Of a stretch of 64,000 nucleotides of DNA, positions 1-12,479 are shown one piece after another. The stretch comes from Desulfosudis oleivorans (lineage in GTDB: Bacteria > Desulfobacterota > Desulfobacteria > Desulfobacterales > SURF-7), in NCBI GenBank assembly GCA_020723305.1, contig DYJC01000004.1, positions 262,261 to 326,260 of the forward strand. The letters are read 5' to 3'. How positions within the stretch are numbered: the first letter of the stretch is position 1; each line of letters begins with the position of its first letter. The notes beneath the pieces were generated by a model. That model made no database searches. It was not told where the DNA came from and saw only the letters and a list, made by a program, of their open reading frames with translations. The translations under genes were made by a program, and so were the position numbers.

Positions 1-101
1 TTTTCTATCAGGACTACCTTGACATCAAACTTTGCCAGTTCAATGGCGGTTGTCAGGCCAGCCACACCACTTCCGATAATCAATACTTTTTTATCAGGCA
101 T
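1..101 (-). CDS. FAD/NAD(P)-binding oxidoreductase, N-terminal fragment (runs off left edge)
   Basis: Only the first about 33 codons are inside the window. They begin MPDKKVLIIGSGVAGLTTA, a Rossmann dinucleotide-binding signature (GxGxxG) followed by an acidic-ended second strand (VKVVLIE), as in HdrA-like or other flavin-dependent oxidoreductases. A GGGGGG stretch lies about 12 bases before the ATG at 101. An in-frame ATG at 140 would add 13 residues but has no visible ribosome site. The exact family cannot be told from so little sequence; HdrA-like is plausible for an anaerobe but is inference. It is divergent from the MerR gene to the right. Confidence 0.7.
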   Translation of the reverse strand, partial: MPDKKVLIIGSGVAGLTTAIELAKFDVKVVLIE

Positions 102-219
102 TCTCGATTCAATTCCCCCCTGATCACGCTTTGCAGACATGATCCATTTTACAATAGTGATGCTTCTAAACAGCAATACACAATGATATCCAAATAATAT
201 AAAAGTGATCACAGGTCAA

Positions 220-247
220 GGTAACAAAGAACAGGTAACAAAGAATT
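220..247. repeat. Short tandem direct repeat upstream of the MerR gene
   Basis: Two adjacent copies of a 14-base unit, GGTAACAAAGAACA and GGTAACAAAGAATT, lie at 220-233 and 234-247, between the divergent oxidoreductase and MerR genes. A TTGACA box at 250-255 with a weak TTATCC at 273-278 (17-base spacer) follows immediately. The repeat could be a regulator-binding site, but nothing in the sequence proves it. Confidence 0.4.
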
Positions 248-386
248 ACTTGACAGAATTCTTACCCCTGTTTTATCCTGCGTTCATTTTAGTTTACGAT
301 TTTTTACAACGGTTCATTATCCGGATAAAGCGATGAAGACACAGTACACTGAAATTCGCTTTGTATATCAACACAGGAGTTTCCAA

Positions 387-1136
387 TTGAAAATCAGCGA
401 ACTTGTTAAACAAACCGGGGTTACAAAAGAAACAATCCATTATTACATTCGGGAGGGCATCCTGCGTAAACCGAAAAAATCAGGGAAAAACACGGCTGAT
501 TATAATCAAAAATATATTGATCAGATCAACCTTATAAAATCTTTGCGTGAAAACTACTTCCTTCCCCTGCCTGTCATTAAGCAACTGATTACCATGCAGA
601 AGAAAAAATCAGATCTGGACCAAACCTCATTTCATTTTTTGAGTAATCATTTCAAACCGCTTGAGCAGCTATTATCCAATGAAATTATCGGCAGAGATAA
701 TTTTAAAAACAAAACCGGCCTCGATGACAATACGCTTTCATTAATGGAAGAATGGAATGTCATCAATGGTGAGGACATAGAGGGTACAACCCGTTATTTG
801 GCGGATGATGTGATCATCGGAAAACTGATTGCAGATATGAAACGGCTCGGCATGATACCAAAATCCGGTTTTGATCCCAAATTATTAAAAGAATTTACGG
901 ATTTTTTTCGTGAACTCGCCAAAAAAAATATCAAATTATTCTGGAATGCGAACTGGGGTGATATATCCATGGAAGAACTGACCATGAAAGGGATTCGGGC
1001 AACTGAGGTTTTAAGTCTGTTTTTTTATCACAGTTACCGGAAGGCGGTTCGTGAAGAATTTAAAGAATACATTAAAACCATAAATCCGGATCCAATTGTA
1101 AATATCCGGTCACGGCAATTCTCGATGAAAGCATAG
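387..1136 (+). CDS. MerR-family transcriptional regulator
   Basis: Begins (from TTG at 387) MKISELVKQTGVTKETIHYYIREGIL, the winged helix-turn-helix of MerR proteins, with the typical second wing segment (YNQKYIDQINLIKSLRE) and a hydrophobic/charged helix after it. The remaining about 150 residues form a large effector or dimer domain without obvious cysteine metal sites, so this is not a classical metal sensor. The TTG start is preferred because AGGAG lies 7 bases upstream and the protein then starts where MerR proteins normally start. An in-frame ATG at 333 would add 18 residues of non-family sequence. It probably regulates itself or the divergent flavin oxidoreductase; the inducer is unknown. 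Confidence 0.85.
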   Translation: MKISELVKQTGVTKETIHYYIREGILRKPKKSGKNTADYNQKYIDQINLIKSLRENYFLPLPVIKQLITMQKKKSDLDQTSFHFLSNHFKPLEQLLSNEIIGRDNFKNKTGLDDNTLSLMEEWNVINGEDIEGTTRYLADDVIIGKLIADMKRLGMIPKSGFDPKLLKEFTDFFRELAKKNIKLFWNANWGDISMEELTMKGIRATEVLSLFFYHSYRKAVREEFKEYIKTINPDPIVNIRSRQFSMKA

Positions 1137-1292
1137 AGAACGAAAGGAACTGAAGGTTCAAATTTCCCAAGATATTTTCCCATCATAAGTTTTGTAAATG
1201 GAGAGAACGCAAGCCGCATTCTTTCCCAACAACAGACTTCGGATCAGGCCTCTGGTTGATCCATCTTCATATAGTTGCTTGGTCATTTTGCC

Positions 1293-1460
1293 TCAATCTT
1301 CATTCAATTTATAGTCGTGACAAAAAACTTCGTCTACCCATCTCCTGGTATAGGCCCTAACAATGTCAGTAGACCGCCATGTAATATCATCATACCTGAT
1401 ACCTGGGCCCAAAATCCAAACCATTAACTCATTTTTCACCGCGAAATAGGATATATCGCC
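1293..1460 (-). pseudogene. Transposase remnant (DDE/IS4-like C-terminal fragment)
   Basis: On the minus strand an open stretch of about 55 codons, closed by stops on both sides, reads in part DDITWRSTDIVRAYTRRW followed by VDEVF. This resembles the end of IS4/IS701-type DDE transposases, where a W-x-[ST]-x-x-IV-x-x-Y-x-x-RW-x-x-E-x-F block carries the last catalytic acid. No start codon, inverted ends or remaining transposase sequence were found, so it is at most a relic. The rest of 1137-1560 holds no convincing gene. The assignment rests on motif recognition by eye only. Confidence 0.4.
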
Positions 1461-1561
1461 TTAATTTCTCCCTTTTCTATCCGGTTTTTCCAAGCCTTTC
1501 AAACAGCACATAACATATTGCCAAAAAAATCCTGTGCTGATTATATATCTGATTATATATC

Positions 1562-1590
1562 TTGACAGCCCCCTTTTTGTCGGCTATAAC
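1562..1590 (+). promoter_or_regulatory. Sigma-70-type promoter for the small membrane protein gene
   Basis: TTGACA at 1562-1567, a 17-base spacer and TATAAC at 1585-1590 give an almost consensus housekeeping promoter on the plus strand. Transcription would start near 1597, leaving a leader of about 180 bases before the ATG at 1779. It is the only obvious promoter before that gene. Confidence 0.6.
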
Positions 1591-1778
1591 CCATAGCCAC
1601 TGAACGAATAATTAACATCATCTATCATAATGTACATTTAAAAAAACAGCAAAAATATTCAAAAACTCATCCAAATGAGATAATAAATCGTAGTCAATTG
1701 TCACACGGATCATACCGGAAAATAATTTCTATTTCCCGGCGAAAGTTTACGACTGAAAATCCTATGGAAGGGACCGTT

Positions 1779-1988
1779 ATGGAAAACAAATCAAATAATG
1801 CTACTGTAGACAAGCTTTTTGATGCTAACGCAAATGATTGCGGCTGCCCGGTTTCGGCGGATGTTGATCTGGATAATATCAAAATTGATACCATCCAGTT
1901 TGATGACCTTAAGAAAACAATTCTGTTGCCCATTGCCGTGACATTAGCTGTTTTGGCCGGTATTGCTGGCTTATTTTTTTACTTTTAG
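1779..1988 (+). CDS. Small single-span membrane protein (69 aa), unknown function
   Basis: Starts at the ATG at 1779, preceded by GGAAGGGACC at ideal spacing. A longer in-frame reading back to 1698 lacks a ribosome site. The product has a polar N-terminal half with a CGCP motif and an acidic stretch (DVDLDNIKIDTIQFDD), then one C-terminal hydrophobic helix (ILLPIAVTLAVLAGIAGLFF) ending two residues before the stop. It would be tail-anchored with its body in the cytoplasm, or a leader-type peptide. I do not recognise the family. It converges with the acyl carrier protein/FAAL cluster and has its own strong promoter. Whether it belongs with that cluster is unknown. Confidence 0.6.
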   Translation: MENKSNNATVDKLFDANANDCGCPVSADVDLDNIKIDTIQFDDLKKTILLPIAVTLAVLAGIAGLFFYF

Positions 1989-2004
1989 CGAACCAGACAA
2001 CTAC

Positions 2005-2134
2005 AAGCCACCTCAAAAAAGATTTTGGTTCAAAATCAAGGTGGATTTAGATTTCGAATCGCAGGCATACATGACGTATGTCGAGGATTTGAAATCTGAA
2101 TCCAACGCAAAATTTGGGTCAAAATACTTTTTTG
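2005..2134. repeat. Dispersed hairpin repeat A, copy 1
   Basis: About 130 bases starting AAGCCACCTCAAAAAA and ending in a T-run. The reverse complement of 26901-27041 matches it nearly base for base, including CGCAGGCATACA and GTCGAGGATTTGAAAT. The whole element is an imperfect inverted repeat centred on CATAC/GTATG. This copy has lost much of the 3' terminal arm seen in copy 2. No gene was recognised between 1989 and 2375; open frames there are by-products of the repeat. Confidence 0.8.
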
Positions 2135-2375
2135 TTTTGATTATGATCCGCAAATCCAATTGAGATACGAATGGCGAACTAATTGATACGGGGGCAGTTC
2201 TACCTAAAATACAAACCCAAACAGCGGATAAAATTTTTGACAGTCATAAACGGCAATGTAATACACTTTTCCCGATATTCGAAAATAGTGGTTAGAAAAA
2301 TCTTAACTCAGGAGTCATTCGCCCTACCAATTCAAAATCTCCTACCTTTAATGATGGCTTCTGGACAAGATGTTT

Positions 2376-2669
2376 TCATACAGCTTTTCGTCCTTCTAAA
2401 AAAATTTCACTCTCAACGAGTGGTAATGCCTGTTCCAAATACTGAATCAAATCACCAATTGTGTTCAAAACCATTATTTCTTCCAGTATTGGTTCAAATC
2501 CATATAGCTCTGCTACCACAGATACCATTTCCATAATTTTTAGGCTGCTGAACCCAAGATCTTCGATAAATTTTAATTCGTAATCAAATTTGATTTTCTT
2601 AGACACCGACAGCTGCAAAATAATTTTGTAAATGTCCTCTTCAATCCGGTTTTTGGCAATGGCCTCCAT
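2376..2669 (-). CDS. Acyl carrier protein-like protein
   Basis: A 97-residue acidic helical protein with the carrier-protein core DLGFSSLKIMEMV. Ser42 sits where ACPs carry the 4'-phosphopantetheine-accepting serine of the D-S-L motif (here F-S-S-L). The length and the helix II/III pattern after it (VVAELYGFEPILEEI) fit a discrete ACP or peptidyl-carrier-like domain. It lies last in a minus-strand cluster directly after a fatty acyl-AMP ligase, the usual partner that loads an acyl chain onto such a carrier. The variant motif means it is probably a dedicated carrier, not the housekeeping AcpP. Confidence 0.85.
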   Translation of the reverse strand: MEAIAKNRIEEDIYKIILQLSVSKKIKFDYELKFIEDLGFSSLKIMEMVSVVAELYGFEPILEEIMVLNTIGDLIQYLEQALPLVESEIFLEGRKAV

Positions 2670-2735
2670 GCGCTCCTTCCTCCTGAGTAACGTTCAAAAA
2701 TTGACTGCTTTCCGGCTATCCATCCCCAATCTTTA

Positions 2736-4508
2736 TCATATTTCTGCTCTTAGCTCTTTGTTAAGATCTATATACATTTTGCGGCACAGCGATCGCTGAA
2801 TTTTTCCACTAGATGTTTTTGGTATAGCACCTTTGGGAATCAAGTTGACATCATCCGGCACTATCCGAAGATTTTCCCAAATTGCAGCTCGAACTTTTCT
2901 GACCAACTCCTCCTTTGTGGTAGAATCGGATAAGGGTGTTTCGCATAGTAGAATCAAATCCTCGGTTCCGCTCATATAATTTTGAACACCAAAGGCCGCC
3001 ACACAACCTTTTCGTATCCCTTCCACGGAAGCTGCAATCCTTTCCATATCATACGGATAAATATTTCTGCCCTGCTTGATGATCATTTCTTTTCGACGAC
3101 CATTCACAAAAAGCATTCTCCCATGAATAAATCCTAAATCACCGGTTCGCAACCAACCGTCCACAAAGGCATTCTCCGTCTCCTCTTGATTACGATAATA
3201 CCCGATAAAAAGGCTTGGGCTTTTGACAAGTATTTCTCCAATTTCTCCTTCACAGCGTATCTTTCCTTTTTCATCTACAATCTGAACGGCTTGGCCGACA
3301 AGCGGATAACCGACTGAAACCAATGAAACGGCGTTATCCTCAGCTGTGTTTGTTGCTGCAACGGCAACATTCCTGCTTTCAATCCCGTCTCGCTTGAAAT
3401 ATTGCACAATTGTAGTTTCTCTCGATATTGGCACAAAGGTTGCGGCCAAGCTGTTCTCAGCCATGCCATAACCAGGGAAAAAAACAGTGTCGTTTTTCAG
3501 CCCGCATGAACTGAACTTTTCGATAAATCGTTGCAGTGTTTTGCTGTCAATCGGCTCAGCGGCATTGAAAGCCAATCGCCAATTGCTTAAATCAATATTT
3601 GTCAGTTTATTATCAGGAATGCGTGACACACAATAATTATATGCAAAATTCGGTGCCGGGCTTATGGTGACCTGGTATTTTGTCATATTTTCAAGCCACA
3701 GAGAAGGATTTAATAGAAATGCCTCCGGCACCATGGCAATCAAAATGAAATCCCAATATAAACTTCCTAGAAGGCTGCCGATAAGCCCCATGTCATGATA
3801 CAAGGGAAGCCAGCTTAAACCTATGTCGTTTTCCGTCACACGCGCAGCCACACCAATCCCGTGAATATTATGGAGGAGGTTTCTATGAGTCAGCATGACT
3901 CCCTTAGGCTTACCTGTAGTTCCGGAAGTGTATTGAATCAAAGCAAGATCCTCGGCCTTGATTTCCGGAAGTACTTGGAATTCGTCTGCAGGTACGGTCT
4001 TTTTCGTCATCTCATTGATAAACAAAATCTCTTGAAGCAACTTCGAAATTTTAATAGAATCGTTGACAAACATCTTAATCTGGTCAAAAGTAATTAAAAA
4101 TCTAGCTTCACAATCAGCAACAATATGCTCCAAATTATTCAAGTAGTTTTCAATGCCCTTTGAACCAAATGGCGGAGCGATTGGAACCGGGACACCACCG
4201 GCCATCAAGACACCGAAAAAAGATCGCACAAAGTCAAAACTGGTTGGAAGCATGATGATGACCTTGTCATTTTTTTCAAGGCCCTGACGCTTCAAATATT
4301 GTGCAATGAACGTCGCTTCTGTTTTAATCTCATTAGCTGTGGCCCTACTTTCATTATTATTGATATCCAAAAAGATAATGGATTGTTTTTGTTTCCCACG
4401 AAGTCGTGTAAGCATGGAAATAAGTGTTTCCGCTTGCAGTGTGTACGTATCTTTGTTTTCGATATATGCAATTGGTTTGGATGTGATATTTTCAGGCCAC
4501 TGCTTCAT
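2736..4508 (-). CDS. Fatty acyl-AMP ligase (FAAL) / acyl-ACP-loading adenylating enzyme
   Basis: A full-length 590-residue ANL-superfamily enzyme. The ATP loop YTSGTTGKPKGVMLTH lies near residues 193-208, GYGMAEN forms the A5 motif, RTGDLGF the hinge-side A7 motif and GRRKEMIIKQGRNIYP the A8 region; the last is the form typical of FAALs (Y-P instead of the acyl-CoA synthetase continuation). C-terminal SSGKIQR carries the catalytic lysine. FAALs activate a fatty acid as acyl-AMP and pass it to an ACP or PKS/NRPS carrier instead of CoA. The start at 4508 is chosen because GGAAAGGAG precedes it. A longer frame to 4616 would overlap the upstream gene and lacks a ribosome site. The ACP gene follows 66 bases downstream. 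Confidence 0.88.
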   Translation of the reverse strand: MKQWPENITSKPIAYIENKDTYTLQAETLISMLTRLRGKQKQSIIFLDINNNESRATANEIKTEATFIAQYLKRQGLEKNDKVIIMLPTSFDFVRSFFGVLMAGGVPVPIAPPFGSKGIENYLNNLEHIVADCEARFLITFDQIKMFVNDSIKISKLLQEILFINEMTKKTVPADEFQVLPEIKAEDLALIQYTSGTTGKPKGVMLTHRNLLHNIHGIGVAARVTENDIGLSWLPLYHDMGLIGSLLGSLYWDFILIAMVPEAFLLNPSLWLENMTKYQVTISPAPNFAYNYCVSRIPDNKLTNIDLSNWRLAFNAAEPIDSKTLQRFIEKFSSCGLKNDTVFFPGYGMAENSLAATFVPISRETTIVQYFKRDGIESRNVAVAATNTAEDNAVSLVSVGYPLVGQAVQIVDEKGKIRCEGEIGEILVKSPSLFIGYYRNQEETENAFVDGWLRTGDLGFIHGRMLFVNGRRKEMIIKQGRNIYPYDMERIAASVEGIRKGCVAAFGVQNYMSGTEDLILLCETPLSDSTTKEELVRKVRAAIWENLRIVPDDVNLIPKGAIPKTSSGKIQRSLCRKMYIDLNKELRAEI

Positions 4509-4549
4509 ATTCTTGGCTCCTTTCCGGTCTGCTATTCCCGAGTTTATTA

Positions 4550-5569
4550 TTAACAACCGGTAAATTTTGGAAAGTAGATCCCGATTTCTTCCTGGTTTAT
4601 GACTGAACCGATGCAATTTGCTTTTTTATTGCGACGCTGCAAGCCCTTGATCAGATATTGAACATAGGTATAATTATTTTGGTATAATCCAATGCCGATG
4701 GCTTGGATGAAAAGTCCTATGAAAGTCGATGGATGCAGATTATTGTGATACAGCGGTACGGATTTATCCATATTGCATTTCGCTTTTAGCAGGTCCAGAC
4801 ATTTTGATGCAAAGACATATAAGGACATATAGCTTTCCAGATGGGAGCCTGTATTCAGACATTCTGAATGAAGCAATTGACCCCAATGAGTAAAAACAAA
4901 TTTTGCATCAATAAATTTTAATAATCTTCCGTCCTTATCAAATTTTATAACATTCTTATAATCAGATAGACGCAACATCCATTCGATCCGGATTCCGGCG
5001 CTATGCTCCTGCACAGATTCGGTTACCAGATCCCGCCCGTCTTCATAAGCCTCAGCAGTTTCATTCTCAAAATAGTGCTGCAATTGAGTTTTTTTGTTCA
5101 TTTCAAGGAAACTTAATGCACTGAGCAGAATTTCAGGCAGATGGAAACAATGCAAACGACTTACCTGTAGCTTACTAAAATTCTCAAGTTGAAAATTTTC
5201 ACCGGTTAATTCTTCTTGAATGCGATTGTTTAAATAATGATAGTTGCATTTTATCCCCTGACTGCCTGCGAATTTTGGATCCAAAAAAATCCATCTTATT
5301 TTACACTTAAAATCCATTTCCAATTCGATGATTGTTTGCAGGATAGCATCCATTTGCTGAATTCCGGCGAATGTTTTCTGCCAACCAGTAATAAAATAAC
5401 CATCCATGCTTTTTTTTATATCGGTTCCTCTGCTGCGACTTGCCAGGTAATTATCGGACATGGCCACATATCCGGCTTGCGCCACAGTTTGCGAGGTTTT
5501 GGTCAAAGGGTTGTTCTTAATAAGCAACGCCGGTACTCGATTCATTTTGTTATCTTCCATTATTTTCAT
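4550..5569 (-). CDS. Conserved-looking protein of unknown function in the FAAL cluster (339 aa)
   Basis: I do not recognise this protein. It is a soluble, His/Tyr/Asn-rich polypeptide with no signal peptide or membrane span. Features that could matter are DPKFAGSQG, a run of conserved-looking HCFHLPE, FTHWGQLLHSEC and a C-terminal YHNNLHPSTFIG followed by a Gly/Ile-rich helix. Possible starts are 5569, 5560 and 5545 (GGAAG before the last). It sits between the degraded adenylating enzyme (10-base gap) and FAAL (42-base gap), so it is almost certainly co-transcribed. Its place in the cluster suggests a tailoring or condensing step on the carrier-bound acyl chain, but this is inference. Confidence 0.75.
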   Translation of the reverse strand: MKIMEDNKMNRVPALLIKNNPLTKTSQTVAQAGYVAMSDNYLASRSRGTDIKKSMDGYFITGWQKTFAGIQQMDAILQTIIELEMDFKCKIRWIFLDPKFAGSQGIKCNYHYLNNRIQEELTGENFQLENFSKLQVSRLHCFHLPEILLSALSFLEMNKKTQLQHYFENETAEAYEDGRDLVTESVQEHSAGIRIEWMLRLSDYKNVIKFDKDGRLLKFIDAKFVFTHWGQLLHSECLNTGSHLESYMSLYVFASKCLDLLKAKCNMDKSVPLYHNNLHPSTFIGLFIQAIGIGLYQNNYTYVQYLIKGLQRRNKKANCIGSVINQEEIGIYFPKFTGC

Positions 5570-5578
5570 TCTTTTAAT

Positions 5579-7180
5579 TTAAGCAAAGAGAGTTCTCTCT
5601 TCGTCCGGTATGGATTGTCTGGACCATTGTCTGAGAATATTTTTATTGAGCTTTCCGGACAGGTCTATCGGCAATTGAGCAAGAATGTAAATCTCATCCG
5701 GCACACTGTCTTGCTGTAACTGCTGGCCGCACAAAGCAAACAACTCGTTCGGTTCCAGTTTTTCACCGGGATTGGGAATGACAAAAGCAAAAATTTTCAA
5801 TTTTTGTTCCCTTACAAATACAACCGCTACTTCTTGAACATGTCTATGCTGCAATAAAGATGTTTCGATTTCCGTTGATAGAATAAAACCAGCAGAATTA
5901 TTTTCCTGTTCCGACTTTTTTCCAAACAGGCAAATATAATTGTCATCATCATAACGGGCCAGTATGCCGGTTCCGAACCATCCGTCATCATGTCCTGAAT
6001 TACCGGTTTGACCGGAAGGATGATATAGGCTGTTCATGAAAGATCCTTTTACCAAAAGCTCACCGGTTTCGCCTTGAGCCACAGATTCGTTTTCATTATC
6101 TACTATTTTAATTTCAATACCCGGAGTCGGTATCCCGACATTGCAAAAACGATAAGCAGCTCCCTGCGTTGGTTCTGAAAGCAACACAATTCCGGTTGCT
6201 TCAATCGAAAAAAAACCGAATTGCAGCCGATAGTCTTGCCGGCCATCTGGGAATTTTTCAACCTTGCCGGCGTTGAATGAATTATACAATACAATCGTGG
6301 AAAGATTGGCCAAATCCGCAAATTGAAATACCGATGTAGCTGTTATAATTCTCCATAACAAGGGCCGGGTGACAACCAACAGAGCATCAACCTCTGTAAT
6401 TTTTTTAATCACCTTGTTTGGATTCAAGGTAGTCAGAAGGTGAACCCCATTGCCCGACAAAAGCTCACTCAACATTACGAAAAAGCCTTCCGGTGTGTAC
6501 AGAGGTTCCGTACAGATGATTCGACAATTGTTATCATCTAAAATGCTTTTAAGCGATTCAGTCATTCTGTAGCAGTTTTCATGGCTAATGCATACACCGT
6601 TTTGCAACCCATCTCCTTCCGGCTGCAACCAAAGCATCGCTGTGTCATTTGGCATTACTGCCGATCTTAAACCTTTTATTCCTACCGGTTTATAAAGCTC
6701 CTGAAAATCCACTACACCTTGTTCTTTTTTAAGCAAATCAATTCCAAACAACCAATTGATATTTCGTAAATTTCTACTTACACACAAGATCTTTTGCTGA
6801 ATACTGGCCACACCGATATGATCAGCAAATATGACGGCATAAACATCAGCGAATTTCAACAATCGCCGAATTTCTGATTCTTCCAGATAGGGGTTGAGGG
6901 GCAAGGCCCATGCACCGATTTTAAAAAGTGCGAAACAGGCGATAACATACTCTTTACGGTTGTTCATCAACAGGGCAACTTTTTTTCCTTTTGAAATACC
7001 GTATGTTTCTAGATTCCGTGCACAAGCCACAACCCGATCATGGAGTTCCTGATAGGAAATGGTTTCATCATCAAGCACTATCGCAACTGTTTCTGCTTGA
7101 TGTTTGGAAATTTTTGCATACTGTTCGAACAAGGCATCAAACAGCATGTCGTTATTTACGATCTGGGCATTTCGTATCAT
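5579..7180 (-). CDS. ANL-superfamily (acyl-CoA synthetase-like) protein with degraded ATP-binding loop
   Basis: The N-terminal half is clearly ANL: TISYQELHDRVVACARNLE, then GKKVALLMNNRKEYVIACFALFKIGA and LPLNPYLEESEI. Where the ATP loop (TSGTTGxPKG) should be, near residues 184-200, it reads WLQPEGDGLQNGVCISH, with no serine/threonine-glycine run and no lysine. The A7/A8 region is also altered (GTGILARYDDD; GKKSEQENNSAG instead of GRxKExIxxxG). The C-terminal SGKLNKN keeps the catalytic-type lysine. It is 533 residues, full-length and uninterrupted, so the change looks like functional divergence and not decay. It may bind the acyl substrate or act as a partner for FAAL rather than adenylate. 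Confidence 0.8.
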   Translation of the reverse strand: MIRNAQIVNNDMLFDALFEQYAKISKHQAETVAIVLDDETISYQELHDRVVACARNLETYGISKGKKVALLMNNRKEYVIACFALFKIGAWALPLNPYLEESEIRRLLKFADVYAVIFADHIGVASIQQKILCVSRNLRNINWLFGIDLLKKEQGVVDFQELYKPVGIKGLRSAVMPNDTAMLWLQPEGDGLQNGVCISHENCYRMTESLKSILDDNNCRIICTEPLYTPEGFFVMLSELLSGNGVHLLTTLNPNKVIKKITEVDALLVVTRPLLWRIITATSVFQFADLANLSTIVLYNSFNAGKVEKFPDGRQDYRLQFGFFSIEATGIVLLSEPTQGAAYRFCNVGIPTPGIEIKIVDNENESVAQGETGELLVKGSFMNSLYHPSGQTGNSGHDDGWFGTGILARYDDDNYICLFGKKSEQENNSAGFILSTEIETSLLQHRHVQEVAVVFVREQKLKIFAFVIPNPGEKLEPNELFALCGQQLQQDSVPDEIYILAQLPIDLSGKLNKNILRQWSRQSIPDEERTLFA

Positions 7181-7264
7181 ATATCTTTCATTCCTTAGGT
7201 GAGCAGCACTTTACATCTTTTTTTTCAAAGCAGCAAGATCTCCCTGGTGTTGCACCATTACGGA

Positions 7265-8176
7265 TCAGACACCGGCAAATTGCTCTTCGATCATAGTAAT
7301 CATCATATCCGTACTTTCATAAAATCTGGTATCATAAATCAAGGTATCTGCTTTCTGCCGGGCTGATTCCAAACTAGTTTCCGAGTTTTTCATATACATG
7401 GAATTACCGAACACTTTCATATCGGGGATCATCTCTCTCACTCTGGGTTGAATCTCAATTATGTCGCTTTTAAAGAAGTCCCATCTATGTGTAAAAGCGA
7501 CATCGATCTTCTTGAGGCAAACTTCCCGGCATGCGCCGGCCATCATTTTAAAATAACGGGCCGTCGGACAGGCTCTTGCAATTGTAATCAACACCCCGTT
7601 TAATAGAATACCGATCCGGTAGCCTTTTTCTTTTAAATTGTCCGAGCTGTTTAAGATATGTGGCAGGACCGGAATCTCAATTTCAAAATTATTGTTGGTA
7701 TGTCTTTCAAAAAAAGAATACATCCATTCATTATCCATATTGCTCCGTAAAAAGCTATCAGCAATCTGGGATGACTCCGGTTCGAAGATGTGTGCGTACC
7801 ACGGAGTAAATTCATAAGAAAATGAGATACCGGTTCCTAACGAAATATTCAGATTCAAATCGGCATGTGTATCTTGAATATGTCGCAATGTTCCATAATC
7901 GTTCACTACAATTGCATTCACCTTCTCTGCAACCTGGTCTACATATCGGCATACCTTGTCAAAATGACTCTCAAAGGCAACCGGGATGATCGCTTTCCGT
8001 TCAAACTCATCGGTTTTCCGCATTATTGTTTCAACCGTATCTATATCCGGTAAGTGTAGATAACAGCCTTCGTTACCGAAGCTGATCACATCCACACCGA
8101 TTTCTTTGATTCTGGTCAAGAATTCATCATCCAGTAATTTGCTATAGTCAGTCACTCTTATTTCCAGCTTCTTCAT
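7265..8176 (-). CDS. U32-family protein resembling UbiV
   Basis: A 303-residue TIM-barrel-type U32 protein (VISFGNEGCYLHLPD, IVVNDYGTLRHI, NISLGTGISFSYEF). Cysteines 38, 203, 216 and 220 have the spacing C...C-x12-C-x3-C reported for the 4Fe-4S ligands of E. coli UbiV (recalled as C39, C180, C193, C197). UbiV with UbiU hydroxylates ubiquinone precursors without oxygen; other U32 enzymes hydroxylate tRNA or rRNA using prephenate. A start at the ATG at 8176 is chosen for GGAG 6 bases upstream; the longer reading starts with GTG inside that site. It follows the U32 partner gene by 30 bases, as ubiV follows ubiU. The substrate here is more likely the cluster's own product than quinone. Confidence 0.85.
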   Translation of the reverse strand: MKKLEIRVTDYSKLLDDEFLTRIKEIGVDVISFGNEGCYLHLPDIDTVETIMRKTDEFERKAIIPVAFESHFDKVCRYVDQVAEKVNAIVVNDYGTLRHIQDTHADLNLNISLGTGISFSYEFTPWYAHIFEPESSQIADSFLRSNMDNEWMYSFFERHTNNNFEIEIPVLPHILNSSDNLKEKGYRIGILLNGVLITIARACPTARYFKMMAGACREVCLKKIDVAFTHRWDFFKSDIIEIQPRVREMIPDMKVFGNSMYMKNSETSLESARQKADTLIYDTRFYESTDMMITMIEEQFAGV

Positions 8177-8206
8177 AAGGTTCTCCACTTTCGTATCAGT
8201 TATTCG

Positions 8207-9181
8207 CTAAATTATATAAGAGTCTGTAATCGGGGTTTTTTTAAAACGGCACCGCTTTCGTTCACAATATCTAGTCACCCAAATTTCGTCCCAGACATCT
8301 TCTTCCCGGGAGAGTTTGTTTCGGATTTCAGGCATCGTCATTCCGGCCAAAGTATAATCCTGCACAATTTCATACATTCTTGTCGTGGCAGCATTAACCG
8401 AGGGTATCGGGCTTTCACGTCCCACAATTTTCAGCACATCGAGTTCGGCTTTCATCAAATCCGGAACACTGCAAAGACAACAATCTGCCGCACCATCTAA
8501 AAAATAAAATTTTTCCGCATCTAATTTTTCATCAATGTAAACATTGAAGCCGGCTCTGCATCCCGGGCCAATATCTTTAATTGTCGGACTGTGTAGAGCC
8601 ATGCACCGTCCGCAATTCGTGCCTCCTCCAAAATGGCCGAAAATCTCAACACTAAAATCCGTTTTTGCCTTAAATTCACAAATCTCCTCAAACGTTATAT
8701 TCTGAGGTAGCACTACCCTATCTACATTCAAATCCTGAAGAAATTTTGTCTGTTCGATGTTAGGAGTAAACAGAAATACGCCTGCAAGAATCGGCAAATC
8801 GATTTTTCGGTCTCTCAGATATCGCATCACTCCGAAATTTGAAAGAATCAGCGCATCAACCCCTACTTCCAGACCGATGTCAATATACCGGTCAAAATCT
8901 TTTTTCAGTATTGCGGACATATAGTGAAGATTAGCAGTATAGTTAATTTTAACATTGTTGGCATGGGCATAATCGACTATCCGACCAAGTTCTTCGACGC
9001 TTTCGACCTGCACTGGAATACCATCCATTCTGTTAAAACGGGCATTAAAAGTGAAATTGTCAAAATCAGAGTTGATGACTCTGCCATTTAGTCCCAGATA
9101 AAGTTCGGAAGCACCGGCTTCGATATGTAGGACTGACATTTCAAGGTTGCGGGTTGGAGCCATAATTGCAATTTTCTTCAT
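8207..9181 (-). CDS. U32-family protein, UbiU-like partner
   Basis: First gene of the minus-strand cluster, with GGAAGG before the ATG. The N-terminus (ASELYLGLNGR; VKINYTANLHYMS; DALILSNFGVMRYL) is the U32 barrel. The family signature E-x-F-x-H then NCGRCMALHS is present, with Cys190, Cys193, Cys208, Cys234, Cys235 and Cys237 giving a cysteine-rich site suited to an Fe-S cluster. The spacing differs from UbiU itself (recalled as C169, C176, C193, C232). A C-terminal extension adds Cys306 and Cys311 in a basic tail (YCERKRCRF). It is expected to form a heterodimer with the UbiV-like protein. Annotation as a peptidase would be misleading. Confidence 0.85.
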   Translation of the reverse strand: MKKIAIMAPTRNLEMSVLHIEAGASELYLGLNGRVINSDFDNFTFNARFNRMDGIPVQVESVEELGRIVDYAHANNVKINYTANLHYMSAILKKDFDRYIDIGLEVGVDALILSNFGVMRYLRDRKIDLPILAGVFLFTPNIEQTKFLQDLNVDRVVLPQNITFEEICEFKAKTDFSVEIFGHFGGGTNCGRCMALHSPTIKDIGPGCRAGFNVYIDEKLDAEKFYFLDGAADCCLCSVPDLMKAELDVLKIVGRESPIPSVNAATTRMYEIVQDYTLAGMTMPEIRNKLSREEDVWDEIWVTRYCERKRCRFKKTPITDSYII

Positions 9182-9840
9182 TGCGATTTCCTTCCATCAT
9201 GTTTCAACAGTGTTTGTTAAATATTAAAAGATATCTTGCTTTCATCTTTCACCGAGCACCCCAACCGATTTCCGCTTTCCAATCGCCTACAATGCCCAAG
9301 AATCTATACTGGAGAGTCTAACTGCAGCCGAATTTCTTAAAATATCTCGGATATTTCTCGAAATTTATTTAATTTTACTAACTGATTTTTAAACGATGAA
9401 TCAAAAATAAAGAAGAAACCATCTGGAAATCCTTTTATAGCGGGAAGTTATAGCCACAAAAAATAATAAATCGGGACATACCAGATAGTAAAATTCAATT
9501 TTAAGATTAATCTATTCGCATTTTTTTTACGATTAATTACGATCATTAGTCGAACTATTTTCCTTTTGTCAAGTAAAAAAGACAGATTTTTTATATTAAT
9601 ATTTTTTTTGACATGGCAGTAAAAGCACTCTAAGCTGTTACAACTTAATGGACGACACCTTTTTCCCAGCCTGATCTCAGAGCTTCCATAGGAAAAATTG
9701 TGTCATCATGCACGCTAATATGTTATGATACCGACCCATGTACTTCCGGACTAATGAAAGCAAAATGGCTCACACGAAAACTTGACCAATAAAGGCTCTT
9801 TCTGCCACTAGCGGATATCCCTTTCCGGAAATTCGTTTCT
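9182..9840. other. AT-rich intergenic stretch upstream of the FAAL/U32 cluster
   Basis: Very AT-rich, with no convincing gene on either strand. It must hold the cluster's promoter, but no near-consensus minus-strand promoter was seen. A plus-strand TTGACA with a 17-base spacer and TAAGCT occurs near 9609-9637 but has no obvious gene behind it. Remaining open frames are short and of random composition. Confidence 0.5.
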
Positions 9841-10062
9841 TCAGATCCGTAATAATTCAAGCCAAAGGTTCTGGATGCCTTTTTGATCGAATGAATTTTC
9901 GACAAATTCTTCCCATTTAATAAATCGCTCATATTGAGCTTCCCAATAATTCGCGGCCCATTTTTGCTTTGCCGGTTCTTTTTGCGTTAAAAAAACTCGT
10001 TTGTCTGACAGGGCTACATGATCTTCATCAACCTGAATGACAACTTGATCGGTTTTTGGCAC
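9841..10062 (-). CDS. Small ORF of unknown function (possible remnant)
   Basis: A GTG-initiated 73-codon frame (VPKTDQVVIQVDEDHVALSD then a Trp/Glu-rich C-terminus with YWEAQYERFIKWEEFVENSF) has protein-like composition. It could extend upstream in frame to 10203 without a good ribosome site. A separate small frame with a good ribosome site ends just upstream at 10094, in a different register, so the pair may be one gene broken by a frameshift. No family recognised. Confidence 0.3.
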   Translation of the reverse strand: MPKTDQVVIQVDEDHVALSDKRVFLTQKEPAKQKWAANYWEAQYERFIKWEEFVENSFDQKGIQNLWLELLRI

Positions 10063-10093
10063 TTGTCTGGCATCATTACAATGCCCTCCCCTT

Positions 10094-10228
10094 TTACACG
10101 CTATTAAACTCGATGCGCCCCGAGCCTTTTTGATTAAATTTTTGGTGGAAAGGGTTGACCGGATCAACTGCAACTCGCTTATCAACATCATAAAACCGGC
10201 CAATTGTAAAAACGATATTATTTTCCAT
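10094..10228 (-). CDS. Small ORF with good ribosome-binding site (44 aa), unknown
   Basis: Starts MENNIVFTIGRFYDVDKR, with AAGGAAAATATT just before the ATG, and stops after 44 codons. It is shorter than usual gene-finder limits but looks translated. The next frame downstream (9841-10062) is offset in register, so this may be the 5' end of a broken gene or a two-gene mini-operon. Function unknown. Confidence 0.35.
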   Translation of the reverse strand: MENNIVFTIGRFYDVDKRVAVDPVNPFHQKFNQKGSGRIEFNSV

Positions 10229-10392
10229 AATATTTTCCTTGCAATTCGATTCCATTATCACTATTATTTACAGTTACAATTTATTTGTTTCGGTGGCAAA
10301 AAAACCGCTCCTTTTATGAATAATGCCGGAGAAAAAACAGACGGTTTGCAAAGCCATCACGTTATGGAATTATTAAGCAAAGGGGATATTGA

Positions 10393-10815
10393 ATGGCAAA
10401 GGTATTTCGGCCAAGCAATCGTGAATCAAAAATCCTGTCTCAGATTGAATCATCAAAGGAAAGAACACGTCGAATCGCGCTGATGGGAATTAAGGATCAC
10501 ATGGAAACACTGAGCAACGCGATTGCAATGAAGCTGGTGGAAAACAATCTGGTAGAAACATCAAATAAAAATGGTCTTGAAGAACAAATTCTAAAATGCC
10601 TTGAACGATTAAGCCATGCTGAAGATTTTGACATCGACTATCAGAATGCAGCTTTCAGAAATGTCGTACCTAATCCTCATGTGGTCAGCCTGTATTTAAC
10701 AGCATTTGTTATCGAACAGGTTGTCAACCACAGAGATACGGTTGATGTTTATGGCTCTGATGAAGAAATCTACCATTGCATCAATCGCCAGGTTTCCAAA
10801 CACCTGCCCGGATAA
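10393..10815 (+). CDS. Conserved-type hypothetical protein coupled to the RNase Z-like gene (140 aa)
   Basis: Starts at the ATG at 10393, preceded by AAAGGGG. The product is soluble and mostly helical (KERTRRIALMGIKDHMETL; NAIAMKLVENNLVETSN; ILKCLERLSHAEDFDIDYQ), with no motif I can assign. Its stop codon TAA overlaps the ATG of the next gene (TAATG at 10813-10817), so the two proteins are translationally coupled and likely act together or need matched amounts. A role in RNA handling is suggested only by the neighbour. Confidence 0.75.
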   Translation: MAKVFRPSNRESKILSQIESSKERTRRIALMGIKDHMETLSNAIAMKLVENNLVETSNKNGLEEQILKCLERLSHAEDFDIDYQNAAFRNVVPNPHVVSLYLTAFVIEQVVNHRDTVDVYGSDEEIYHCINRQVSKHLPG

Positions 10816-11870
10816 TGCCGGCTTCATTTCTCCCCAGACTGATCAGCAAGCCTTTTCAAGATCCAGGTCTCTATATTCCTTTCTCTTTTATCAAAAGGGC
10901 AATTATTTTTGACCTGGGTGATATTTCACACCTCTCTCCTAAAGATATCCTGAAAGCAAGTCATGTATTCATATCTCACACCCATATGGATCATTTTATC
11001 GGATTTGACCACCTTCTCCGTCTGGTGTTGGGCCGGACAAAAAAATTGTGCCTGTATGGACCTGAGGGTTTTATCCAGAACCTGGAAGGGAAACTTTCCG
11101 GATATTCCTGGGATCTGGTTGAAAACTATGAAAATATGTTAATCCTGGAGGCTGCCGAAATCCATCAAACCCATTTACTGGTGCAGACCTATATCTGCCG
11201 GAACCGTTTTCAACCCACCTCACCCCCCCTGAAAAAACCATTTACCGGTTTGATTCTGGACGAACCGGGTTTTTCTGTTTCCACAATCATCCTGGACCAC
11301 AGCATTCCCTGCCTGGGATTTTCAATGAAAGAAAGGTTTCAAGTCAATATTAAAAAAACAGCGCTTCAAGATATTGGCCTCACGCCAGGTCCCTGGCTGA
11401 ATGATTTGAAACAGGCTCTTTTTGATAACAAACCAGCTGATTCTATTTTTAAAATCCCCGCCGGCCAGGCATCACCCATTGCTCAATGTTTCAAATTGGG
11501 TGAACTTTCCAGCCGGATTGCGAAAATCACACCTGGTCAAAAAATCGGTTATATTACAGATGTCCGGTATACACCGGAAAACCTGAAAAAGATCATCCCT
11601 TTTGTCCAGGGGGCGGATCATCTCTTTATTGAAGCTGCTTTTTCAGATGCCCATGCAGATATTGCATCCACAAAAAACCATCTTACCGCCAGGCAGGCCG
11701 GAGAAATCTGCGGCAAAGCAGGAGCAAAGCGCTTCACGATTTTTCATTTTTCCCCCCGATATTCGGAAACAGAAGCACTTCTATACCAGGAGGCAGAGGA
11801 TGCTTACCAAAAAGCCTTTTCAAATGAAACACCGTCTCGCAGCACGGGTGTAATCAAAGCTATTGAATAA
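10815..11870 (+). CDS. Metallo-beta-lactamase-fold hydrolase, ribonuclease Z-like
   Basis: A 351-residue MBL-fold protein with the zinc motif HTHMDHFIGFDHLLR, a further VSTIILDHSIPCLGF block and a C-terminal HLTARQAGEICGKAG...FTIFHFSPRY segment as in RNase Z/ElaC proteins (tRNA 3' endonuclease family). The early text IIFDLGDISHLSPKDIL matches the family's first strand. The start at 10815 overlaps the upstream stop; the longer frame from 10776 lies inside the upstream gene. The N-terminus differs from canonical RNase Z, so it may act on another nucleic acid or ester substrate. Confidence 0.85.
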   Translation: MPASFLPRLISKPFQDPGLYIPFSFIKRAIIFDLGDISHLSPKDILKASHVFISHTHMDHFIGFDHLLRLVLGRTKKLCLYGPEGFIQNLEGKLSGYSWDLVENYENMLILEAAEIHQTHLLVQTYICRNRFQPTSPPLKKPFTGLILDEPGFSVSTIILDHSIPCLGFSMKERFQVNIKKTALQDIGLTPGPWLNDLKQALFDNKPADSIFKIPAGQASPIAQCFKLGELSSRIAKITPGQKIGYITDVRYTPENLKKIIPFVQGADHLFIEAAFSDAHADIASTKNHLTARQAGEICGKAGAKRFTIFHFSPRYSETEALLYQEAEDAYQKAFSNETPSRSTGVIKAIE

Positions 11871-11954
11871 TCGAATTATGTGGCACTTTCATATAAAAAA
11901 ACAGCCCGTACAAACAGGCTATCCGGCTAACAGGAAAACCGGCAAACCGAATAA

Positions 11955-12479
11955 CTAGTTCGGTGACACCATAATTGCGATATTCTCTTCCGGAATCCTG
12001 AACATGGTATGGATCATCTTTTTTAACTGATCCAGTGTCTCCTGCTCGGTTTTACCCCGCATGGCCCAGTTTTCAAACCCGGCGCGTCCCATGATAATCG
12101 AAACCGATACCCGCTGGCTTGCCTGAACCTGGGATTGAAAGTCCGGATCTAAAAAATCGATATCCACATGGGTGACAATGGTGTTTTTCCCAATGGACGA
12201 GGTCAATGGCTGGATCAATTGTTCGATTTTTCGCGTGTAATCCTTTTCAATCGATTGAACCAGAATTCTCTTTTTTTCCAGCAATTCCGGTGAAATGGAT
12301 TTGTCCAGAATCTCCATTCGTTTTAACCCGACCTCTTTTTCCTCCCTTGAAGGCCCAACATCAATACTGATTTTTTTGTGCTCAACAACACCGGCTGAAT
12401 CTTCGGCATTGGTTTGCATCGCAAAAAGCAGAACAAAAACTGCAATACTGAAAATCCATAACCACAATCGATTGTTCAT
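11955..12479 (-). CDS. Exported protein with a FliF-like segment, unknown function
   Basis: 174 residues with a clear signal peptide (LWLWIFSIAVFVLLFAMQTNA then EDS). The body contains EKDYTRKIEQLIQPLTSSIG followed by a VTHVDIDFL strand. This closely recalls the periplasmic ring-building region of FliF (EKKIEDLLEPILGxxxVxVxVxAxLDF). The last third (VSVSIIMGRAGFENWAM, then an amphipathic helix) also fits an oligomerising domain. No transmembrane anchor remains after signal cleavage. It is directly downstream of an ABC exporter pair (16-base gap), so may be a periplasmic partner of it. No flagellar gene lies nearby. Confidence 0.7.
   Translation of the reverse strand: MNNRLWLWIFSIAVFVLLFAMQTNAEDSAGVVEHKKISIDVGPSREEKEVGLKRMEILDKSISPELLEKKRILVQSIEKDYTRKIEQLIQPLTSSIGKNTIVTHVDIDFLDPDFQSQVQASQRVSVSIIMGRAGFENWAMRGKTEQETLDQLKKMIHTMFRIPEENIAIMVSPN

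Follow-up and report, generated by a model that had tools for sequence, protein, structure and literature searches.

A six-gene cluster in Desulfosudis oleivorans places a U32-type protein pair beside a fatty acyl-AMP ligase and an acyl carrier protein

Here we describe six minus-strand genes, at 2376-9181, in a 64,000-nucleotide stretch of the Desulfosudis oleivorans genome (GenBank assembly GCA_020723305.1, contig DYJC01000004.1, positions 262,261 to 326,260 of the forward strand; hereafter the window, whose own numbering we use). The host genome comprises 5.4 Mb in 47 contigs. The cluster encodes two U32-type proteins, an adenylate-forming (ANL) homologue, an orphan protein, a fatty acyl-AMP ligase (FAAL) and an acyl carrier protein (ACP). 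On the evidence of profiles and a tree, the two U32-type proteins are a pair belonging to an uncharacterised two-protein U32 group, which we call shortC and partner, and are not UbiU/UbiV. We tentatively propose that the cluster forms one biosynthetic operon, probably of horizontal origin, in which the FAAL loads the ACP, the U32 pair oxidises without O2 and the remaining products assist. The operon appears to be real and unusual and is known from one genome; the biochemical proposal is testable but unproven.

Results

The first U32 protein is a divergent relative of shortC

The 5′-most gene of the cluster encodes a member of the U32 family (PF01136, E-value 1.2e-26, 93.9 bits against a cut-off of 22.4). 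Among the 217 open reading frames (ORFs) of the window, this protein was matched by the shortC profile at an E-value of 7.3e-33, by the TrhP profile at 1.7e-26 and by the UbiU profile at 8.7e-24. ShortC is a name coined here for eleven proteins of 312-368 amino acids (aa), and the shortC and partner profiles were built without the window proteins. The same placement emerges from a 53-row tree, in which group labels were assigned from protein length and motif and from which one locus that gave no row (L134) is omitted. There the protein is placed alongside shortC (support 98/94) and lies outside the UbiU (100/98), TrhP (93/92) and RlhA (one row only) groups; a grouping with true UbiU/UbiV or TrhP clades is what an earlier reading of this DNA from its letters alone (the sequence-only reading) had named as refuting it. 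When the longest shortC row and five rows of a second short group, shortG, are removed, the shortC placement has support of 98/97. The exact position of the protein is not certain, because its terminal branch is long (2.97; one of the shortC rows has 2.32). Forcing it into UbiU or into TrhP is rejected, modestly, by the approximately unbiased (AU) test (p 0.028 and p 0.034, respectively).

Two identities were tried for this protein and rejected. As a UbiU it scores 64.8 bits against a model cut-off of 440, falls outside the clade and has a deviant cysteine spacing; as a TrhP it again falls outside the clade, with the AU value of 0.034.

The cysteines of the first U32 protein also diverge from those of its nearest relatives. 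Its motif reads C190-X2-C193-X14-C208, with C234, C235 and C237 following, whereas the first two motif cysteines are spaced C-X6-C in shortC rows, L163 and L164 for example. Cysteines common to shortC fall at positions 193, 208, 234, 237 and 311 of the window protein in one alignment (A17). E179 and C193 are invariant in two others (A4 and A6), and we judge that they sit where E162 and C177 of TrhP would; the residues are equated by motif, with E. coli TrhP itself outside the alignments. Both TrhP residues are essential (PMC6599085; this and the other PMC papers are cited from excerpts).

The second protein matches the partner of shortC

The sequence-only reading counted two U32 proteins. For the first this stands by Pfam; the second has no PF01136 match at E-values up to 10 and joins the family only through profiles built here. 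A profile of nine partners, which leaves out two duplicate or near-copy rows (L175 and L171), finds the second protein at 9.5e-15, the next window ORF scoring 1.1 and the best reversed ORF 1.7. The shortC profile matches it weakly (E 0.00016), and a narrower, three-row partner model (A18) has no match in the window's own genome at 0.01. In tblastn searches with the second protein, none of the first three partners came up at 0.01, and there were matches to two loci retrieved around other partner genes (E 3.4e-5 and 7.2e-5).

Cys 42, 207, 220 and 224 of this protein (nominal numbering) have the C-Xn-C-X12-C-X3-C spacing that in UbiV holds a [4Fe-4S] cluster, as shown by mutation (PMC6747719). 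The C-X12-C-X3-C part of this pattern arises in 58 of 100,000 shuffles. UbiV identity as such was assessed by profile only and weakly rejected (E 1.6 with a thin, three-sequence hidden Markov model; hhalign probability 1.9%), and a structure model computed from the one sequence is too poor to use (pLDDT 40). The two proteins do form a pair, as had been claimed, in that both match the shortC/partner profiles. The accompanying label of a UbiU/UbiV-type pair does not hold: the match is to a different, uncharacterised two-protein group.

The shortC/partner family in other genomes

Scanning 148 genomes of the phylum with the UbiU model gave a set of short U32 proteins, and 20 regions were fetched. 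Ten of these contain the eleven shortC genes, five contain shortG genes, and five (L146, L147, L148, L152 and L153), which have no tblastn match to the first U32 protein at 0.01, are not in the tree. In three fetched loci a gene of ~265 aa, the partner, precedes the shortC gene; for two of these three partners, a Pfam search gave a single hit, which belonged to an unrelated family and fell below threshold. The partner family as defined by model A18 is present in 9/9 other shortC genomes, or 6/6 independent ones, since three were sources of the model; this count covers shortC genomes only. The pair is found in several families of this phylum.

The two genes are adjacent in five fetched loci (L150 10245-12072, L158 7568-9398, L154 7527-9508, L157 287-2585 and L185 7030-9728), and the pair comes after a gene for lipoyl synthase (lipA) in L150, by NCBIfam, and in L158, by eye. 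Also by eye, the partner gene is next to or near a moeA-like gene in L184 (8103-10171) and L188 (6362-8884), with a mobB-like gene between them in the latter. The shortC gene adjoins a TP_methylase gene in L161 (7934-9691; Pfam) and, by eye, does likewise in L159 (8034-9788). The moeA-/mobB-like and TP_methylase neighbours hint that cofactor biosynthesis is the ordinary context of this family. Among the PepU32#1-6 families that PMC6747719 cites from Kimura et al., one may be equivalent to shortC.

The shortG group (L149 8460-9488, L151, L155, L156 and L162) occupies a very long branch (4.48) in the vicinity of RlhA and is without the G-R-C motif. A U32 protein above the UbiU cut-off occurs in 9/148 phylum genomes (L114-L122), in one case with an internal stop; UbiTUV has been reported from alpha-, beta- and gammaproteobacteria (excerpts of PMC6747719).

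FAAL, ACP, ANL homologue and orphan

The ACP has the phosphopantetheine attachment domain (PF00550, 24.2 bits against a cut-off of 20.8). Its neighbour combines an AMP-binding fold (PF00501, 8.7e-69) with the fatty acyl-AMP ligase model as its top NCBIfam match (411 bits, short of the model cut-off of 600), and its alignment displays an intact ATP loop YTSGTTGKPKGV, TGDLG and late GK lysine. The top PDB match of this protein is a polyketide-synthase entry, 7r7g (E 1.4e-96). The description of a FAAL adjoining an ACP is thus borne out, with the motifs of both intact.

The ANL homologue (PF00501, 2.9e-37; PF13193, 8.7e-9) keeps the late GK lysine. In the place of the FAAL's ATP loop it has LQPEGDGLQNGV, and TGI stands for TGD, in agreement with the lost ATP loop described in the sequence-only reading. 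Because of these two replacements, adenylation by this homologue is improbable. Searches of Pfam, NCBIfam, PHROGs and PDB gave no match for the orphan, and its single-sequence structure model is too poor to use (pLDDT 33). The host genome has two matches to phosphopantetheinyl transferase and two to chorismate mutase, so neither the carrier arm nor prephenate is obviously lacking.

Gene arrangement and composition

All six minus-strand genes of the sequence-only reading are present as intact ORFs with no internal stops (Table 1). By inspection, we judge the six frames to be real genes, since they share a strand, are intact, reach 300 codons or more in five of six cases and are preceded by ribosome-binding-site-like sequences. 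Shine-Dalgarno-like sites lie 5′ of 6/6 genes, given the partner start ATG 8176 and the orphan start 5545. For the partner gene, such a site exists for ATG 8176 only, as against GTG 8188; in the orphan, 5545 replaces 5569, and the 339 residues first ascribed to this unrecognised protein become 331. Measured from nominal starts (the FAAL from ATG 4508), the intergenic gaps are 18, 84, 9, 41 and 66 bases; of the range of 10 to 84 given before, the upper bound is right and the lower is one base too high. The sole same-strand ORF of at least 70 aa in the 1.2 kb upstream of 9181 encodes 120 aa (9841-10203), which makes the U32 gene the probable start of the operon.

Table 1. Genes of the cluster, from the 5′ end of the minus strand
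Feature	Position in window	Strand	Length and basis
U32 protein, divergent relative of shortC clade	8207..9181	-	324 aa; PF01136, shortC profile, tree
U32-partner protein	7265..8176 (nominal ORF 7265-8188)	-	303 aa from ATG 8176; partner profile
ANL (adenylate-forming) homologue	5579..7180	-	533 aa; PF00501, PF13193; ATP-binding motifs degenerate
Orphan protein	4550..5545 (nominal 4550-5569)	-	331 aa (nominal 339 aa); no family match
Fatty acyl-AMP ligase (FAAL)	2736..4508	-	590 aa; motifs intact
Acyl carrier protein (ACP)	2376..2669	-	97 aa; PF00550; LGFSSL attachment motif read from sequence

The G+C content of the cluster is 0.407, compared with 0.445 in the window beyond 9.2 kb, and its tetranucleotide make-up is moderately atypical (rank 5/35), with three of the four higher-ranked segments overlapping the first 10 kb. 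Horizontal acquisition of the cluster is the likeliest reading. An Rfam search matched a tRNA only, and the repeats around the cluster are short, with two copies each. Promoter-like sites are about as numerous as in shuffled sequence (37 vs 33.4, sd 5.9). Terminator-like sites in positions 1-12000 of the window are in about twofold excess (21 vs 10.2 in shuffles, sd 3.3). Adjoining the cluster, on the plus strand, is a gene for a MerR-type regulator of 267 aa (333-1136), a possible regulator. A 69-aa plus-strand ORF (1779-1988), convergent with the cluster, encodes a C-terminal hydrophobic segment and has no Pfam or PHROGs match.

Search for further copies of the cluster

The genome samples searched overlap and were drawn from larger groups; the window's own genome is excluded from the counts in this section. 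Neither 58 relatives nor 394 phylum genomes contain the orphan (0/58 and 0/394). The partner protein was found in 0/389 phylum genomes at E 1e-5, and the first U32 protein in 0/384 phylum genomes at 1e-18 and 0/290 same-order genomes at 1e-16. In plasmid records neither the orphan nor the partner was matched; the U32 query returned generic U32 proteins (31% or less identical, best 20 of 154 records) and the FAAL query returned FAALs (39% or less, best 20 of 233). The top relatives of the FAAL among 297 phylum genomes are 42% identical.

Two scans of a genome collection were made by motif. One U32 motif gave 15 stretches and 0 relatives; two FAAL motifs gave 289 stretches and 274 relatives, of which the best 80, at most 44% identical, were kept. 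The two-motif scan misses FAALs without both motifs, and its 80 loci are not to be equated with the 80 nearest in nature. In these 80 loci (3.2-19.8 kb), tblastn at E 1e-3 found no U32 pair, orphan or ACP, and there was no match to the ANL homologue of 80 bits or more. Conversely, the orphan, ANL homologue, FAAL and ACP were found in 0/20 fetched loci (3.1-19.5 kb, 19 of them around shortC/partner genes; tblastn E 1e-3). The neighbourhood analysis that the sequence-only reading had suggested consequently leans neither way: no second copy was found, which neither supports linkage nor refutes it by scattering.

Discussion

Proposed function

In the pathway that we propose, the FAAL would activate a carboxylic acid as its acyl-AMP and transfer it to the phosphopantetheinyl arm of the ACP. 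Of the steps, this one alone follows directly from what is known of the families. The two U32-type proteins would then assemble into a heterodimer with two Fe-S clusters, like UbiU and UbiV, and would oxidise the carrier-bound acid, or a group joined to it, without oxygen. Hydroxylation would be the simplest such reaction, and prephenate a possible donor. We infer this second step from the U32 oxidases: those characterised are described in excerpts of the literature as hydroxylating without O2 and requiring prephenate (PMC11574389, PMC6599085) and act on quinone precursors and RNA (PMC11574389), the chemical role of prephenate being still undemonstrated (PMC11574389, PMC6599085). By this analogy, it is plausible that an acid on the carrier is modified without O2. 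The orphan and the inactive ligase homologue may have helper roles (scaffold, gatekeeper or transferase) and pass the product on; it would be a modified lipid or small molecule. Taken one step further, the cluster could represent the first carrier-protein-dependent pathway in which a Fe-S heterodimer of U32 type carries out the oxidation; it would be the anaerobic equivalent of the oxygenases acting on acyl-ACP and would draw on a hitherto unnamed U32 pair family. We regard this broader claim as possible and, on present evidence, doubtful.

Several observations weigh against the proposal. The linkage of the six genes rests on one genome, and no second copy was found that would show it to be conserved. 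The shortC/partner family has no described function that we could find, and its neighbours in other genomes (lipA, moeA-/mobB-like) give no hint of acyl-ACP chemistry. The UbiU spacing C-X6-C-X16-C-X38-C is absent from the first U32 protein, and the alignments disagree over C190, which falls on the first motif cysteine in A4 and not in A17. By Pfam, the six genes lack ketosynthase, thioesterase and condensation domains. Direct evidence that U32 oxidases are catalytic has yet to be obtained, and the family includes putative peptidases too (both from excerpts of PMC11574389).

Alternative explanations

The absence of the FAAL, ACP, ANL homologue and orphan from all 20 fetched loci, 19 of them around shortC/partner genes, together with the position of the pair downstream of lipoyl synthase in L150 and L158, would be expected if the U32 pair kept the role of its own family, in cofactor, RNA or maturation chemistry, and merely shared transcription with a FAAL-ACP unit that transfers acyl groups independently of it. 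We consider this unlikely. The six genes lie on one strand with gaps of only 9-84 bases, and the branch of 2.97 fits a change of substrate, though a shortC row comes close to it (2.32). Moreover, the first U32 protein occurs in no other of 291 same-order genomes (1e-16), which argues that the pair is not resident housekeeping. A different possibility is that the pair does act on the carrier-bound acid, or on its protein, by a reaction other than hydroxylation: dehydration, isomerisation, sulfur or radical chemistry, or even proteolysis. The C190-X2-C193-X14-C208 motif, which differs from that of UbiU, is consistent with this, as are Cys 234, 235, 237, 306 and 311, which suggest a different or second metal site, and the putative peptidases already mentioned within the U32 family (PMC11574389). 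We nevertheless think a non-hydroxylating reaction quite improbable, in that the described U32 oxidases hydroxylate (PMC11574389, in excerpt) and the invariant E179 and C193 stand at the presumed places, equated by motif, of the essential E162 and C177 of TrhP.

It is also conceivable that the cluster is a decaying foreign island whose genes are functionless, drifting remnants. An ANL homologue without an ATP site, an altered UbiU-type cysteine pattern and an orphan without relatives found would all suit such an origin, as would the low G+C (0.407 vs 0.445) and the tetranucleotide rank of 5/35. This explanation appears very unlikely to us in view of six full-length frames without stops, each with a ribosome-binding-site-like sequence, the intact FAAL and ACP motifs, and the four partner cysteines at their exact spacing. 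We retain, tentatively, the proposal of an operon in which the U32 pair works on an ACP-bound acid.

Significance and comparison with known systems

The absence of any described pathway of this composition, noted in the sequence-only reading, agrees with our own searches. A fatty acyl-AMP ligase and a U32 protein were not found described together in the searched literature, which left most subscription journals beyond its reach; nothing was found there that connects a U32 peptidase with an anaerobic natural product, or that brings together three or more of U32 peptidase, fatty acyl-AMP ligase, acyl carrier protein and Desulfobacter; and the papers listed there on UbiU/UbiV homologues or gene clusters include none that mentions a biosynthetic gene cluster. 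The building blocks are of known kinds; their combination, and shortC/partner as a unit, we could not find described. If the U32 pair is indeed tied to a carrier protein, its chemistry would extend to acyl or natural-product intermediates of anaerobic organisms, in which oxygenases are of no use, and an acyl-ACP would offer a soluble substrate, readable by mass spectrometry, for asking how U32 enzymes insert oxygen. As a two-protein U32 group, the shortC/partner pair is of interest independently of this cluster.

FAAL-ACP loading modules occur in polyketide and lipopeptide clusters. The window cluster resembles them in having a FAAL beside a free-standing ACP, and in the polyketide-synthase entry that is the FAAL's top PDB match; it differs in its lack, by Pfam, of a ketosynthase or condensation domain and in the U32 pair alongside. 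With TrhP and RlhA, which carry out prephenate-dependent RNA hydroxylation, the first U32 protein shares the U32 domain and a glutamate and cysteine in the motif region, whereas the tree separates the groups (RlhA being one row) and the first motif cysteine is displaced in the window protein.

The closest relatives are shortC and its ~265-aa partner, to which the window pair is tied by profile and tree for the first protein and by profile for the second. Unlike them, the window pair has a first member on a long branch, with C-X2-C for C-X6-C, and is joined to a FAAL, an ACP, an ANL homologue and an orphan, an association seen in 0/19 shortC/partner neighbourhoods. UbiU-UbiV is the pair that hydroxylates ubiquinone anaerobically. 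Like the window pair, it consists of two adjacent U32-type proteins; the window partner has the C-Xn-C-X12-C-X3-C pattern, and the tree shows UbiU as the neighbouring clade. However, the first window protein lies outside that clade (AU p 0.028), the thin UbiV profile misses the partner (E 1.6), and the window pair adjoins a FAAL and an ACP rather than quinone genes.

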